A DNA stretch of 64,000 nucleotides from Synechococcus sp. 8F6 (lineage in GTDB: Bacteria > Cyanobacteriota > Cyanobacteriia > PCC-6307 > Cyanobiaceae): contig NZ_NQKZ01000004.1 of NCBI RefSeq assembly GCF_002252665.1, positions 62,001-126,000 of the forward strand, written 5' to 3'. The notes beneath the pieces were generated by a model that saw only the letters and a list, made by a program, of their open reading frames with translations, did no database searches and was not told the origin of the DNA. The first letter of the stretch is position 1. The number at the start of each line of letters is the position of its first letter. This document shows positions 54,565 through 61,822 of the stretch, one piece after another. A program made the position numbers and the translations under genes.

Positions 54565-57231
54565 ATGGCGGACCCCAGCGGACCCGGTGCTGGCTCACCG
54601 GGGGAGTCCGGCGGCAACGGCGATTCGCGGATCATCCAGACCGATCTGCGCAACGAGATGTCGCGCTCCTATCTGGAGTATGCGATGAGCGTGATCGTGG
54701 GTCGGGCCCTGCCCGATGCCCGCGACGGCCTCAAGCCGGTGCACCGGCGCATCCTTTATGCGATGTACGAGCTGGGCCTGACCAGCGACCGGCCTTACCG
54801 CAAATGCGCCCGTGTGGTGGGTGAGGTGCTCGGTAAGTACCACCCTCACGGCGACACGGCGGTGTACGACGCCCTGGTGCGGATGGCCCAGGACTTCAAC
54901 ATGCGCATGCCCCTGGTGAACGGGCATGGCAACTTCGGCTCGGTGGACGGCGACCCCCCGGCCGCCATGCGCTACACCGAGTCGCGGCTGCAGGCGCTCA
55001 CCACCGACAGCCTGCTCGAAGACATCGAAGCCGAGACGGTCGACTTCGCCGACAACTTCGACGGCTCCCAGCAGGAGCCGACCGTGATGCCAGCGCGGAT
55101 TCCGCAGCTGCTGCTCAACGGCTCCACCGGCATCGCCGTGGGGATGGCGACCAACATCCCGCCCCACAACCTCACCGAGCTGATCGACGGGATGCTGGCG
55201 CTGATCGCCAACCCCGAGATCGACGATCTCCAATTGATGGCGATCATCCCGGGGCCCGACTTCCCCACGGGGGGCCAGATCCTGGGCCGCCGCGGCATCC
55301 GCGAGACCTACACCACCGGTCGTGGTTCGGTGACGATGCGTGGCGTGGCCTCGATCGAAACGGTGGAGGTGAAGGGCCGCCCCGATCGCGATGCGGTGAT
55401 CATCACCGAGCTGCCGTTCCAGACCAACAAGGCCTCGCTGATTGAGCGGATCGCTGAGTTGGTGAACGACAAGAAGCTCGAGGGCATCGCCGACATCCGC
55501 GACGAATCCGACCGCGACGGCATGCGGATCGTGATCGAGCTGCGCCGCGACGCCTACCCCCAGGTGGTGCTGAACAACCTGTTCAAGCTCACCCCGCTGC
55601 AGAACAACTTCAGCGCCTACATGCTGGCGTTGGTGAAGTCGGAGCCGGTGCTGCTCACCCTGCGCAAAATGCTGCAGGTGTTTCTCGACTTCCGCGTCGA
55701 GACGATCGAGCGCCGCACCCGCTACTTCCTGCGCAAGGCGGAAGAGCGTGACCACATTCTGCTGGGTCTGCTGCTGGCCCTCGACCAGCTCGATCCGATC
55801 ATCGCCCTGATCCGGGCCGCCTCGGATGCGGCCACGGCCCGCCAGCAGTTGCAGGAGCGCCACGGCCTCAGCGAGATCCAGGCCGACGCCATCCTGCAGA
55901 TGCAGCTGCGCCGCCTCACCGCCCTGGAGGCCGACAAGATCCGGCTCGAGCACGAAGACCTCGTGGTCAAGATCGCCGACTACAAGGACATCCTGGCCAA
56001 CCGCGAGCGGGTGCTCACGATCATCACCGAGGAGCTCGGTGTGATTCGCAGCCGCTACCTCTCGCCCCGCCGCACCGAGATCCTGGATCTGGAGGGCGGC
56101 CTTGAAGACATCGACCTGATCGCCAACGAGCGCTCGGTGGTGCTGCTCACCGAGAACGGCTACCTCAAGCGGATGCCGGTGAGCGAATTCGAGGCCACCA
56201 GCCGCGGCACCCGCGGCAAGGCCGGCACCAAGAGCCAGGGTGAGGAGGCCGTGAAGCTGTTCATCAGCTGCAACGACCACGACAACCTGCTGCTCTTCTC
56301 GGATCGGGGTGTGGTGTACACCGTGCCGGCCTACCGGGTGCCGATCTGCAGCCGGGCCGCCAAGGGCACGCCGATCGTGCAGATGCTGCCGATTCCCCGC
56401 GAGGAGCAGATCACCTCGCTGCTGGCGGTGAGCGAATTCGCCGAAGATGCCGTGCTGGTGATGCTCACCAGTGGTGGCTATGTGAAGCGCACCAGGCTCT
56501 CGGCCTTCGCCAACATCCGCTCCAACGGCCTGATCGCCATCTCCCTGGAGGACGGCGACGCCCTCACCTGGGTGCGGCTGGCCCAGCCCGGCGACAGCGT
56601 GCTGATCGGCTCGCGCAACGCCATGACCATCCACTTCCGCCTCAGCGATGAGGAGTTGCGCCCCCTGGGCCGCACCGCCCGCGGGGTGCGCGCTATGAAC
56701 CTGCGTGCCGGCGATCAGCTGGTGAGCATGGATGTGATCCCGGCCGAGCTCGCCGACCAGGTGGCCAGCAGCGCCAGCGACGACGCTGACGCAGACGAGG
56801 GCGACGAAGTGGCGCCGAGCGAGGGTCCGTGGGTGCTGGTGGCCAGCGCCAGCGGCCTGGGCAAGCGGGTGCCGGTGAATCAGTTCCGGCTGCAGAAGCG
56901 GGCCGGCATGGGCCTGCGTTGCATGAAGTTCCGCCGCGCCGGCGACGTGCTGGTGGGCCTCAAGGTGCTCGGCGCCGGCGAGGAGCTGCTGCTGGTGAGC
57001 GAGAAGGGGGTGATCGTGCGCACCCAGGCCGATGCCATTCCCCAGCAGTCCCGCGCTGCCACCGGTGTGCGCCTGCAGAAGCTCGACTCCGGCGACCGCC
57101 TCACCGAAGTGGTGCTGGTGCCGCCCGCGCCGGAAGAGGAGGATGCTCCCACCCTTGAGGTGCCCGCTCTGGAGGGGGCCGAGGACCCGATTGATGCCGC
57201 GGTCAGCCCCGATACCGCCCCAGACGCCTGA
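54565..57231 (+). CDS. gyrA: DNA gyrase subunit A (type IIA topoisomerase)
   Basis: Breakage-reunion subunit of gyrase. The 888 residues contain [20 protein letters not shown], the quinolone region [20 protein letters not shown], and [10 protein letters not shown] with the catalytic Tyr137. The C-terminal beta-pinwheel has a GyrA-box variant SRGTRGKAG in place of the usual QRRGGKG, plus blade repeats to about 870, then an acidic tail. ATG 54565. If a second homologue exists elsewhere, this could be ParC, but length and the DNA-wrapping domain favour GyrA. The neighbour CARDB gene starts 17 bp later. Confidence 0.92.
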
Positions 57232-57248: not shown

Positions 57249-58382
57249 ATGGCCGACTTCTGGATCGCTAACACCGTCCGCGATCTGATTCAGGGTGATG
57301 TGAATGAGCACCTGCCCCTGGAGCGCATTCCTCTCCAGGGTGACGTGCTCGGCCTGGGCACCACCACCAGCATCGACAACGGCGAGCTCACCTTCCTGCA
57401 GGATGCCGATGGCGCGGCAACCACGATCTGGAAATGCCAGGCCAGCGATGGCGGCATTCGGCCCTTGCGGCCTGGGGATGGCAGCAGCCACTTCCCCTAC
57501 GTGTGCTTCAGCGGTGATGCCACCGCCGTGCGCACGCCGGTGGATCTGGCCAGCCTGTGCGAGGTGCGGGGCCGGCCGTTGCAGGAGCTGGTGGCCGAGG
57601 CGATTGCCCAGCTGCGGCACCAGGGTCGGTTAGCGGAGGCGCCGATTTATGGCCTGCGCCTGGTGTCGCAGTGGGAGTCGCTGGTGATCACGGTGGCCTC
57701 GAAGCTGTGCATGGGGCAGCAGCGGCGCAACACCGCCATCGCCAGCAGTGCGGCCAGCGACGGCACCGCAGCGCGCAGCATCTACCAGCTGCTGCAGCAC
57801 TACCGGTTGGCTCCGGAGGATCCTGGGGATCCCAGCGATCCGATCCGCTTTCTGGGCCGCTCCCTGGAGTGGGATTGCTGCGGCTTCTTCGATACCGATC
57901 CGGCCTTGGGCCGGGTCACCATCCCCGACCCCCATGCCCATCTGCATCTGCACGGCTGCAGCACCGATCTGCGCTACGGCGGCCACCTGCACCACGAACA
58001 TCCCGGCACGCGGCTGGCCTCCCTGCAGCGGCTGGTGCTCTATCCCCTGCAGCACCTCCACCAGCTGGTGAGTGATCTGGCCATTGAGGCGCTGCACTTC
58101 CGCGATGGCAGCGCCCACTTCACCGTGGCCAACCGTGGTGCCATGGATGTGAGCGATGTGGGCGTTGCCGTGGTGGTCAACGACCGCTACAGCGGCCATC
58201 GCTATCTGCGGCTCCCCTGGCTGGCGGCCGGTGCCAGCGAAACCTTCAGCGTGCCCCTGCAGCTGCCCGCTGGGACCCATCGCCTCGTGGTGATCGCCGA
58301 TCCCGAGGGTCAGATCCTGGAGGAGGCCGCTCTCCAGCTCAACAATCGCGCCAGCCTCGACATCCACCTGCCCGATGTCTGA
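57249..58382 (+). CDS. Acetolactate-decarboxylase-like (BudA fold) protein fused to a CARDB-like domain
   Basis: I read two parts in the 377 residues. Residues about 25-265 match the alpha-acetolactate decarboxylase fold: GLGTTTSIDNGELTFLQDA (as in the DGEL motif), IYGLRLVSQWESLV, and HLHLHGCSTDLRYGGH, in which H233, H235 and H246 keep the exact HxH-x10-H spacing of the BudA zinc ligands. Residues about 280-377 form a CARDB-like Ig domain (FTVANRGAMDVSDVGVAVVV, then LPAGTHRLVVIADPEGQIL). No signal peptide. The 3' end overlaps crtL by 8 bp. Substrate unknown; it may not be acetolactate. Confidence 0.6.
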   Translation: MADFWIANTVRDLIQGDVNEHLPLERIPLQGDVLGLGTTTSIDNGELTFLQDADGAATTIWKCQASDGGIRPLRPGDGSSHFPYVCFSGDATAVRTPVDLASLCEVRGRPLQELVAEAIAQLRHQGRLAEAPIYGLRLVSQWESLVITVASKLCMGQQRRNTAIASSAASDGTAARSIYQLLQHYRLAPEDPGDPSDPIRFLGRSLEWDCCGFFDTDPALGRVTIPDPHAHLHLHGCSTDLRYGGHLHHEHPGTRLASLQRLVLYPLQHLHQLVSDLAIEALHFRDGSAHFTVANRGAMDVSDVGVAVVVNDRYSGHRYLRLPWLAAGASETFSVPLQLPAGTHRLVVIADPEGQILEEAALQLNNRASLDIHLPDV

Positions 58383-59661
58383 CGTGCCGGTTTCTGACGT
58401 GCTGGTGGTGGGTGGCGGCCCGGCGGCCCTGGCCATCGCCGCTGAGCTGGCGGAGCGCCAGCTGCAGGTGGCCGTGCTGGCCGCGGCTGATCCCCGCGAT
58501 CCCTGGCCCAACACCTACGGCATCTGGGGCGATGAGGTGGATGCCCTCGGCCTGGGCCATCTGCTGGAGCACCGCTGGAGCCACACCTGCAGCTACTTCG
58601 GCTCCGGCAGCAGTGATCCTGCCGATCCAGCCAACAGCCCCACCCGCCACGGCCGCGACTACGGCCTGTTCGACAAAACTCGGCTGCAGCAGTTCTGGCT
58701 GGGGCGCTGCGAGGCGGCTGGCGTGCAGTGGCTGCGGGGGTTGGCGCAGGAGCTGAGCCATGGGGGTGGCCGCAGTCGGCTCACCTGCACGGATGGCGCC
58801 GTGCTTGAGGCGCGGCTGGTGGTGGATGCCAGCGGCCACCAGGCGGTGTTTGTGCAGCGGCCCGACCGGGGGCCGGTGGCGGGGCAGGCGGCCTATGGCG
58901 TGGTGGGGCGCTTCTCGGCGCCGCCGGTGGAGCCGGGGCAATTCGTGCTGATGGATTACCGCGCCGATCACCTCAGCGCAGCGGAGCGGCAGGAGCCCCC
59001 CACCTTTCTCTATGCAATGGACCTGGGGGAGGGCCGCTTCTTCGTGGAGGAAACCTCGCTGGCCCTGGCGCCGCCCGTGCCCTACGACACGCTGCGCTCC
59101 CGGCTGCAGCGGAGGCTGGCCCATCGCGGCGTGGCGATCGAGCAGGTGGAGCACGAAGAGTTCTGCCTGTTTCCGATGAACCTGCCCCTGCCGGATCTCG
59201 ATCAACCGGTGTTGGGCTTCGGTGGGGCCGCGGCGATGGTGCATCCGGCCTCGGGCTACATGGTGGGGTCGCTGCTGCGCCGGGCTCCTGGGGTGGCGGA
59301 TGCGGTGGCGGCGGCGCTGGAGGCGGATCCCGCGGCTTCACCAGCCCAATTGGCCCAGGCGGGCTGGCAGGCGTTGTGGTCGTTGGAGCTGCGCCGCAAG
59401 CATGCGCTCTACCAATTCGGACTGGAGAAGCTGATGCGTTTCTCCGAGTCCCAGCTGCGGGCCCACTTCGCCACCTTCTTCGCCCTGCCCGATGCCCAGT
59501 GGTATGGCTTCCTGGCCAACACCGCCAGCGTTCCCGAATTGGTGGCGGCCATGGTGCGGTTGTTTGCCACCGCCCCCTGGAGCGTGAAGGCCGGCCTGAT
59601 GGCCATGCAGGGGCGGGAGCTGGCGCTGGGCCTGCGGCTGGCCTGGCCGGTGGGCAGCTGA
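58375..59661 (+). CDS. crtL: Lycopene beta-cyclase (CrtL type)
   Basis: FAD-dependent enzyme that forms the beta rings of beta-carotene. The 428 residues have DVLVVGGGPAALAIAAELAE (dinucleotide site), NTYGIWGDEVDALGLGHLLE, YAMDLGEGRFFVEETSLA and the C-terminal FGGAAAMVHPASGYMVGSLL, all of the CrtL/LcyB class. ATG 58375 overlaps the CARDB gene; its own stop shares its last base with the next start (TGATG). Confidence 0.94.
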   Translation: MSDVPVSDVLVVGGGPAALAIAAELAERQLQVAVLAAADPRDPWPNTYGIWGDEVDALGLGHLLEHRWSHTCSYFGSGSSDPADPANSPTRHGRDYGLFDKTRLQQFWLGRCEAAGVQWLRGLAQELSHGGGRSRLTCTDGAVLEARLVVDASGHQAVFVQRPDRGPVAGQAAYGVVGRFSAPPVEPGQFVLMDYRADHLSAAERQEPPTFLYAMDLGEGRFFVEETSLALAPPVPYDTLRSRLQRRLAHRGVAIEQVEHEEFCLFPMNLPLPDLDQPVLGFGGAAAMVHPASGYMVGSLLRRAPGVADAVAAALEADPAASPAQLAQAGWQALWSLELRRKHALYQFGLEKLMRFSESQLRAHFATFFALPDAQWYGFLANTASVPELVAAMVRLFATAPWSVKAGLMAMQGRELALGLRLAWPVGS

Positions 59662-61822
59662 TGGCTGCGCGCCGCACCCTGGGATCGCTCTGGCCGCGTT
59701 CAATCGGCAACCAGTGCCTGTTGATGCTGCCGCTGGGCGTGCTGGTGGGCCTGCTCTGGCCCCAGGCTGCCGAGGCGCTCGAGCCCCTCGGTCGGCTGTT
59801 TCTGCAGGCCTCCCAGATCGTTGTGATGCCGTTTTTGATCTGCGAGCTGGTGGTGGGCTTCGGCTCGTTGCAGCCGGGCATGCTGCGCAGCTTCGTGCGC
59901 TCCGGGCTGGTGGTGCTGCTGGGCCTGTGGTTCGCGGCGGGGGCAGTGGTGCTGCTGCTGCCGTGCTTCCTGCCGCCCCTGGTCACCTCCCAGTTTTTTC
60001 ACGCCGGGCTATTCGAGCGACCGCAGCCGGTCGATCTGCTGGGGGTGTATTTGCCCGACAACATCTTCAGCGGCCTAGCCGCAGACAATTTTCCCGCCGT
60101 GGTGCTGTTCAGCTCGGTGCTGGGGATGGTGCTCCAGAGCCTGGAGACCAAGGCCCGGCTGCTGGAGCCCCTGGAGGTGATCCGGCAGCTGTTTTCGGGG
60201 CTCAACCGCCTGGTGGCGCGGATCGTTCCCTTCGGCATCTTCGCGCTCACGGCCCTCAACACTGCTCGGCTCGACTGGCCGCAGCTGCTGCGCATCCAGG
60301 GTTTCTTCCAGCTCTCGATGCTCGGCTTCCTGCTGCTCACGATCCTGTGCGCCGGCATGCTGCTGGCCCTGGTGCCTCTGCCGGCGGGTCTGCTCTGGCG
60401 CGCGATCCGGGGGCCGCTGGTGCTCACCGCCAGCAGCGCCAACCTTCTGATTACGCTGCCGATGCTGGTGGAGAACCTGCGCCACGAACTGCCCGCCAGC
60501 CTCGATCCAGGCGGGCGCCAGCCCCAGGCCGCCGATGAACTGGCCCCGCTGGTGTCACTCGGCTATGCCCTGCCCACCCTGGGGCAGGTGGCGGCGCTCT
60601 GGTTCATCCCCTTCGCCGGCTGGTATGTGGATCAGCCGTTGAGCCCCGCCCAGAGCGCCAGGATGCTGCTCACGGCCATCCCGGCCGCCGTTTCCGGGCT
60701 GAAGGCGGTGATCCGCGAGGAGCTGCAGGCCCGCGGTCTGCCGCTTGATCTGCTCCAGCTGATCTACATCAACGGCGAGTGGCTCTACCGCTTTGAGAAG
60801 GTGCTGTCCCTCGAGGGGTTGGTGGTGCTGGCGGTGCTCGTCTATGCCCGGGCTGTGGGCCGCTGCCGCCTGCGGCCGCTGCCTCTGCTGGCGGCGCCTC
60901 TGCTGGCTGCTCTGTTTGCCTTGGGCGGCGGCCGCTTGGCCCGGGCCCAGCTGGCGCAGGCGCTCGAGGGCACCTACCGCAACGATCAGAAGCTGCTGGC
61001 CCTCGGATCTATCGACCAGCTCAAGCCGCCGCCTGCGCTGCAGCAGCTGCAGCCGGGGCCGGTGAGCCTGGCGGCGATCCTGCAGCGGCGGGTGCTGCGG
61101 GTGGGGGTTCGCTCTGACGGCATGCCCTGGGCGTATCGCAACGGCCGCGGAGAGCTGGTGGGCTACGACCTTGATCTGGTGTCAGCCCTGGCGCGTAGCC
61201 TCGGCGTGCGCCTGGAGGTGCGCGAGGCCGATCTGGAGAGCCTGGAACGCTGGCTGGATTCGGCCTGGATTGATCTGGCGGTGGGCGGCATCCAGACCAG
61301 CCCTCAGCGGGCCGTGCGCACCAGCTCAGCCAGGGCTACCAGCGGGTGCATCTGGCCCTGGTGGTGCCCGATGCCAAGGTGGCCCTGCTCCAGAACCTGC
61401 GCCAGCAGCGGTTGATGCGGCCGCTGCTGATTGCCGTTACCGATCCGCAGCTGCTCACCCCGGAGCTGCGCGATCAGCAGCGCCAGGAGCTGGCGGGCAC
61501 CCAGGGGCGCCTCAGCCTGCAGCTGCAGCCCCTGGTCAGCAAGGATTTGTTTTTCGGCGCTGATGGTCAGAGCCGTTTCGATGGCCTGCTCACCACCGCC
61601 GAGGGTGGCTCCTCCTGGGCGGTGCTGCACCCCCGCACCACCTTGATTGCCCCGTTCGAGGATCGCCTGGCCGGCGAGCTGGTCTGGGCGATCGCAGGTG
61701 ATGACGCTGCCCTGCGCCGCTACATCAACGCCTGGCTGGCGCGCGAGCAGGCCCGCGGACAGATGGAGGCGCTCTTCGATTACTGGGTGCGGCTCAGCCC
61801 GTCGGAGCGGACAGGGCGCTGA
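59661..61822 (+). pseudogene. Dicarboxylate/amino-acid:cation symporter fused to a family-3 solute-binding domain, frameshifted
   Basis: The first part (to about residue 430) is an SDF/GltP-type sodium:dicarboxylate symporter with eight or so membrane segments and the conserved serine-rich hairpin VLTASSANLLITLPM. After a further membrane helix a periplasmic binding domain begins: RRVLRVGVRSDGMPWAYRNG, then LVGYDLDLVSALARSLGVRL. In the frame of the start, coding sense is lost after RAVRTSS near 61321 and a stop comes at 61413-61415. The binding domain continues in another frame from SQGYQRVHLALVVPD to 61822. One missing C in the CC at 61321-61322 explains it (RTQLSQGYQRV if restored). Real mutation or sequencing error. 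Confidence 0.75.

Follow-up and report, generated by a model that had tools for sequence, protein, structure and literature searches.

Acetolactate decarboxylase (ALDC, also BudA or AlsD; PF03306, TIGR01252; PDB entries 4bt2 and 6j92) decarboxylates a 2-hydroxy-3-oxo acid. The residues E65, R145, H194, H196, H207 and E253 of 4bt2 (numbers taken from HMMER alignments) are presumably its catalytic residues. The CARDB domain (PF07705; 3idu, 2kl6, 2l0d) is usually met in cell-surface proteins. The human protein C11orf54, also named PTD012 (DUF1907, PF08925; 1xcr), has been assigned a function only in 2025; it is reported to be a Zn-containing 3-dehydro-L-gulonate decarboxylase, structurally related to ALDC, in which Zn is bound by three histidines and the substrate is a 2-hydroxy-3-oxo acid (Galperin commentary, PMC12435205). 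ALDC and C11orf54 have both the fold and the metal site in common. In Black Sea Synechococcus, acetolactate decarboxylase is reported under that name in passages of PMC6776005 and PMC8955281. Keyword searches of the literature, partly with weak matching that probably caught “cardboard” and partly on whole words, gave among the papers listed none that seems, from its listing, to describe a cyanobacterial protein with ALDC-like and CARDB domains, and at the same keyword level nothing was found that pairs ALDC with Arg145.

Such a fusion protein is encoded in the window, the whole 64,000-nucleotide stretch of Synechococcus sp. 8F6 DNA analysed here, which comes from an assembly of 2.5 Mb in 84 contigs. 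The gene and its features are listed in Table 1. Its ATG follows the end of gyrA after a gap of 17 bp, and the original prediction, which placed it between gyrA and crtL with an overlap of 8 bp to the latter, agrees with the coordinates and the Pfam matches. The dN/dS ratio against two homologues (L036 and L037) is about 0.13 (0.030/0.219 and 0.045/0.357), and of the base differences, third codon positions take 53 of 79 and 83 of 118, respectively; the gene is therefore conserved and under purifying selection.

Table 1. Coordinates of the fusion gene, its domains and motifs, and the adjacent genes in the window.
Feature	Position	Strand	Basis
gyrA, upstream neighbour	54565..57231	+	Pfam
ALDC-like/CARDB fusion gene	57249..58382	+	ATG start, 377 aa; homologues, dN/dS
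ALDC-fold domain (predicted), residues 1-274, boundary approximate	57249..58070	+	AlphaFold model, Z 19.9 to 6j92_A, profile match
GLGTTTSIDNGEL, residues 35-47, E46 = E65 of ALDC 4bt2	57351..57389	+	alignments
Thr148 codon, invariant, at the place of ALDC Arg145	57690..57692	+	profile alignments, invariance
Low-confidence segment, residues 153-178, with invariant C154 and R160	57705..57782	+	pLDDT, invariance
HxH-x10-H, residues 233-246, putative metal ligands	57945..57986	+	invariant in 64/64 loci; spacing as 4bt2 H194/H196/H207
HHEH, residues 248-251, family-specific	57990..58001	+	H249, H251 invariant; H248 59/64, E250 57/64
CARDB domain, residues 275-377	58071..58379	+	Pfam; Z 14.7 to 3idu_B, 102 residues, 1.8 Å
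Lycopene cyclase gene crtL, downstream	58375..59661	+	Pfam; 8-bp overlap with fusion gene

The predicted structure is the strongest evidence for a link to ALDC. The AlphaFold model of the fusion protein (mean pLDDT 87.8, pTM 0.84) was computed from alignment A1, which contains no ALDC sequence, and without a template. Searched with this model, Foldseek placed ALDC chains at ranks 1-7 in the PDB (4bt2, E 9.6e-9), and VIA-align found nine entries whose titles name ALDC or a protein similar to it at Z 18.5-19.9, the best being 6j92. The human PTD012 structure (1xcr) came below the ALDCs, with Z 14.4 over 220 residues at 4.1 Å. The model falls under pLDDT 50 at residues 153-158 and 164-178, and the segment comprising them is a possible active-site lid. 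The C-terminal CARDB domain is recognised by Pfam (PF07705 at residues 290-360, E 1.1e-6, 29.3 bits, cut-off 22.7), and residues 270-377 superpose on the CARDB structure 3idu_B (VIA-align). Here the domain ends a protein whose N-terminus, read by eye, shows no evident signal peptide, a setting unlike its usual one.

At the sequence level the relationship is distant. The window protein alone matches PF03306 at residues 7-51 with E 0.014 and 15.2 bits, under the cut-off of 25, and TIGR01252 with 14.1 bits, under the cut-off of 180.65; a relative in genome G406 reaches 24.1 bits for PF03306, against the same cut-off of 25. Among PDB sequences, phmmer gave no ALDC match and a profile search listed 4bt2 at a non-significant E 1.9. 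At E <= 1, all 32 members of A1 match both PF03306 and CARDB (best ALDC E 1.9e-5), and the profile of the fusion family, compared with that of 29 picocyanobacterial ALDCs, aligned over 185 columns with a probability of 32.7% and E 4.6e-4, a value that holds for one pairwise profile comparison. The link to ALDC is drawn from these matches, the pairwise comparison and the predicted fold. The predicted fusion of an ALDC-like domain to a CARDB domain is thus borne out by fold and profile searches, and the model superposes on ALDC structures. The likeness to C11orf54 is one of fold. None of the 32 A1 members matches PF08925 at E <= 1, the Z score is lower than for the ALDCs, and the comparison concerns one human structure that has no CARDB domain. 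A DUF1907 search of the genomes matched none, controls included, and so is no measure of absence.

The analysis of the active-site residues indicates what the fusion family has kept and what it has lost. In the non-significant profile match to 4bt2 (E 1.9), GLGTTTSIDNGEL aligns with GLGTINDLDGEM, and hhalign likewise sets E46 on the equivalent of ALDC E65, so that the GLGT...GE segment does lie where it had been predicted, at the place of the DGEL motif of BudA. The positions given earlier for H233, H235 and H246 are right as well, with ten residues between H235 and H246 as in the HxH-x10-H spacing of ALDC. No variation is seen at E46, T148, H233, H235, H246, H249 and H251 across the 64 loci (L001-L064, counting that of the window), across the 51 distinct sequences among them, or across the 7 sequences of alignment A2, which brings in two distant members. 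Such invariance of E46 and the three histidines shows that the motif is not due to chance. K152, C154, R160, H184 and D240 are invariant in the 64 loci too. In the hhalign alignment the first two ALDC histidines fall on H231/H233, two residues off H233/H235; the latter pair are preferred here as the better candidates for metal ligands, since H231 varies in 8 of the 51 distinct sequences and the spacing is then gap-free.

Two further ALDC residues have no counterpart. E65, R145, H194, H196, H207 and E253 are invariant in the 29 aligned picocyanobacterial ALDCs; these are the 29 of 30 ALDC loci kept by a sequence pattern that requires the histidine spacing, so the conservation of the histidines is by construction. 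The thirtieth locus (L084), missed by the pattern for one residue before the motif, keeps R145 and E253 as judged by eye. At the position of R145, arginine in 29/29 aligned ALDCs, all 64 fusion loci have Thr148. E253, glutamate in 29/29, aligns only loosely into the CARDB domain, to D286; the tail of ALDC that bears it appears from the alignment to be replaced by CARDB, and a residue located elsewhere in space could stand in for it. With R145 and E253 both absent, the fusion protein is not to be filed as an ALDC, and judged by its aligned catalytic set the family is a separate subfamily. It differs from ALDC further in the added HHEH motif and CARDB domain, in its location outside AlsS operons and in scores under the PF03306 and TIGR01252 cut-offs.

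With a candidate metal site and the E65 equivalent kept and R145 and E253 lost, the economical reading is a third branch of the superfamily, with like chemistry and another substrate. The fusion protein would belong to the ALDC/DUF1907 (C11orf54) fold superfamily as a decarboxylase that depends on a metal, perhaps Zn, and probably works in the cytosol; H233, H235 and H246 would hold the metal and E46 would play the part of ALDC E65. A 2-hydroxy-3-oxo acid would bind the metal through its oxygens and lose CO2. Thr148, the 153-178 segment and HHEH would reshape the pocket, and these changes, together with the absence of R145 and E253, suggest that the preferred substrate is probably not acetolactate; it would be a related acid, for instance one that a thiamine-diphosphate enzyme forms by carboligation, as product or by-product. 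The natural substrate is probably a small hydroxy-keto acid. The probably new substrate of the original prediction is strengthened by the replacement of R145 by Thr148 and by the loss of the E253 tail. CARDB would probably take the place of the ALDC C-terminal tail, with a structural role or one in oligomerisation. That the fusion protein is a metal-dependent 2-hydroxy-3-oxo-acid decarboxylase of the ALDC/C11orf54 superfamily with an altered pocket is favoured, with modest confidence. The ALDC fold, the invariant E46 and three histidines, the chemistry of C11orf54, and the gene linkage and co-occurrence described below argue for it, and the two-residue offset of the histidines in hhalign argues against it.

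The two lost catalytic residues could also mean other chemistry. The loss of R145/E253, and the invariance of H249 and H251 next to the third ligand, would agree with a metal enzyme that catalyses a different reaction on a hydroxy-carbonyl compound, as an isomerase, hydrolase or retro-aldol lyase, and that may bind a second metal at HHEH. Such an enzyme is improbable, both fold relatives with a known physiological reaction, ALDC and C11orf54, being 2-hydroxy-3-oxo-acid decarboxylases and E46 being kept. CARDB is typically a non-catalytic module, and with two catalytic residues gone a sensor or structural protein that keeps the metal site only for folding may be imagined; the invariance of E46, T148, K152, C154, R160, H249 and H251 in 64/64 loci probably exceeds what a structural metal site needs and makes such a protein very improbable. 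In favour of a reaction other than decarboxylation, it may be added that PTD012 carried for a long time the annotation of an ester hydrolase (PMC12435205).

The favoured decarboxylase reading has a wider form: the family would be a third branch of enzymes in the ALDC/C11orf54 superfamily, with a substrate new for the fold, a family-specific HHEH site and CARDB in a cytosolic enzyme that, in cyanobacteria, decarboxylates for house-cleaning or overflow alongside a thiamine-diphosphate ketoacid decarboxylase. The chances of this form are rated at slightly less than even. The family would extend the superfamily of the human protein C11orf54, and what replaces the chemistry of R145 and E253 can be tested in it directly. 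An ALDC label given by homology could misstate picocyanobacterial fermentation.

The fusion protein is common in picocyanobacteria. Over the curated cut-offs of Pfam and NCBIfam only its CARDB domain is recognised. Of 200 genomes from the order (taken to be G000-G199), 42 match at E <= 0.001, the window's own among them, a count that also takes in fragmentary (G064, G112), split (G022, G190) and stop-interrupted copies (G062, G093, G185). In a draw from the phylum, 14 of 386 genomes match; those outside the family (G334, G406, G415) are cyanobacteria, and the fusion is also present in G636, of the same order as G334. Named homologues belong mostly to Vulcanococcus, Cyanobium and Synechococcus. 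Two contigs binned as Haliea carry the gene as well (L032, 55% identity; L034, 52%), which, taking the binning as given, suggests transfer between phyla; near the L032 copy lie genes for a 3-hydroxyacyl-CoA dehydrogenase and an FMN oxidoreductase. Carriage as phage or plasmid cargo has been rejected, the phages, plasmids and viral_contigs sets giving no match at the sensitivity of those searches.

Co-occurrence of the fusion protein with other enzymes has been tested within eight genera covering 102 of the 200 genomes, small genera being left out; related species count as independent in these statistics, in which genus g5 (8/8) weighs heavily, and the counts are supportive only. Fusion and true ALDC avoid each other, with 2 genomes observed against 8.6 expected (P 0.0002); the values are 4 against 9.1 (P 0.0056) with ALDC fragments counted, and 2 against 7.9 (P 0.0007) with damaged copies of both left out. 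The 25 genomes of the ALDC set do not include G059 and G073 (matches to the fusion itself), G295 (weak, and beyond the first 200) or those with fragments, G030 and G055; they do include G012 (two pieces) and G071 (with stops). This avoidance would suit a working ALDC that replaces the canonical enzyme and turns acetolactate from IlvB into acetoin, other residues serving for R145 and E253, as would the two fusion genomes that hold ALDC fragments only (G030, G055) and the strongest of three PF02775 matches in the window's genome, which is taken to be IlvB. Set against it are the missing R145 and E253, the two genomes that carry both proteins (G045, G097) and the distribution of AlsS, which occurs in 10 of the 200 genomes and adjoins ALDC in 7/7 genomes having both, yet is found in just 1 of 40 fusion genomes outside the ALDC set (G062). 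AlsS has accordingly been rejected as a partner of the fusion, and a working ALDC is considered unlikely, if a shade less so than the enzyme of another reaction discussed above. Three canonical picocyanobacterial ALDCs (L172:5339-6193, L184:6521-7375, L185:6082-7020) show an N-terminal stretch resembling a ribbon-helix-helix, matched by PF01402 at E 0.0003-0.006, over the cut-off in one of the three.

A partner of another kind is seen in one distant genus. In G406 (genus g66), an MFS transporter gene, a gene for an indolepyruvate-decarboxylase-like (IPDC-like) thiamine-diphosphate enzyme (TIGR03393, 414 bits, cut-off 946) and the fusion gene follow each other on one strand. In G415 the three genes are arranged alike, the fusion gene being damaged; belonging to the same genus, the two genomes count as one independent case. 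The fusion gene is absent from 13 of 15 genomes of their family, and no IPDC-like neighbour was seen in the other fusion loci that were mapped. The original prediction saw no partner of an acetolactate or acetoin pathway; this holds for the window proteins run through Pfam (51-64 kb), among which there are no acetoin-pathway proteins, and is qualified by the thiamine-diphosphate partner of g66. IPDC-like enzymes occur in 24 of the 200 genomes of the order at E <= 1e-60, 14 of these having the fusion; within genera 14 are observed together against 8.5 expected (P 0.0012), and the same test with ALDC gives 8 against 7.6 (P 0.53). These data favour the decarboxylase reading. Against it stand the limitation of the linkage to a single genus, the 28 of 42 fusion genomes in which no IPDC-like enzyme is found at E <= 1e-60, the window's own genome, which has neither an IPDC-like enzyme at that threshold nor an AlsS at E <= 1e-120, and the two genomes, G045 and G134, that have an IPDC-like gene close to an AlsS-ALDC pair.

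The surroundings of the gene vary. The gyrA-crtL setting of the window is real and is one among several: the fusion lies between the two genes in 19 of 34 loci of the genome_contigs set (in 3 of these with about 1 kb more before crtL), the order is gyrA, crtL, fusion in 1 of 34, and in 14 of 34 neither neighbour is seen in the available flank, some flanks being short. Taken with the 22 of 30 crtL loci that have gyrA no more than 1.5 kb from crtL and lack the fusion (tblastn, E <= 1e-12), this has led to the rejection of a tie to gyrase or carotenoids based on gene location. Some of these 22 loci have other genes in between, and the gyrA-crtL gap seems open to accessory genes. An antisense gene encoding about 370 aa occupies it in some genomes, both where the fusion is present (L013, L015) and where it is absent (L156:448-1515, L153, L167); Pfam recognises nothing in the L156 copy at E <= 0.001. 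In G111 (L149:684-1452) the gap contains genes for a TacA1 antitoxin and a GNAT protein, which resemble a toxin-antitoxin pair, and similar ORFs lie in the gap of G198 (L147). Downstream of crtL, the window encodes at 59664-61822 a dicarboxylate symporter (SDF) fused to a SBP_bac_3 solute-binding domain; the SBP_bac_3 match ends at profile position 74 of 132 and an overlapping ORF continues in another frame, possibly as a result of a frameshift. A gene that by eye looks like a class II fructose-bisphosphate aldolase is convergent with the fusion gene in G636 and in two contigs of marine Synechococcus (L174:10509-11651, L030:9212-10285, L031:9187-10260).
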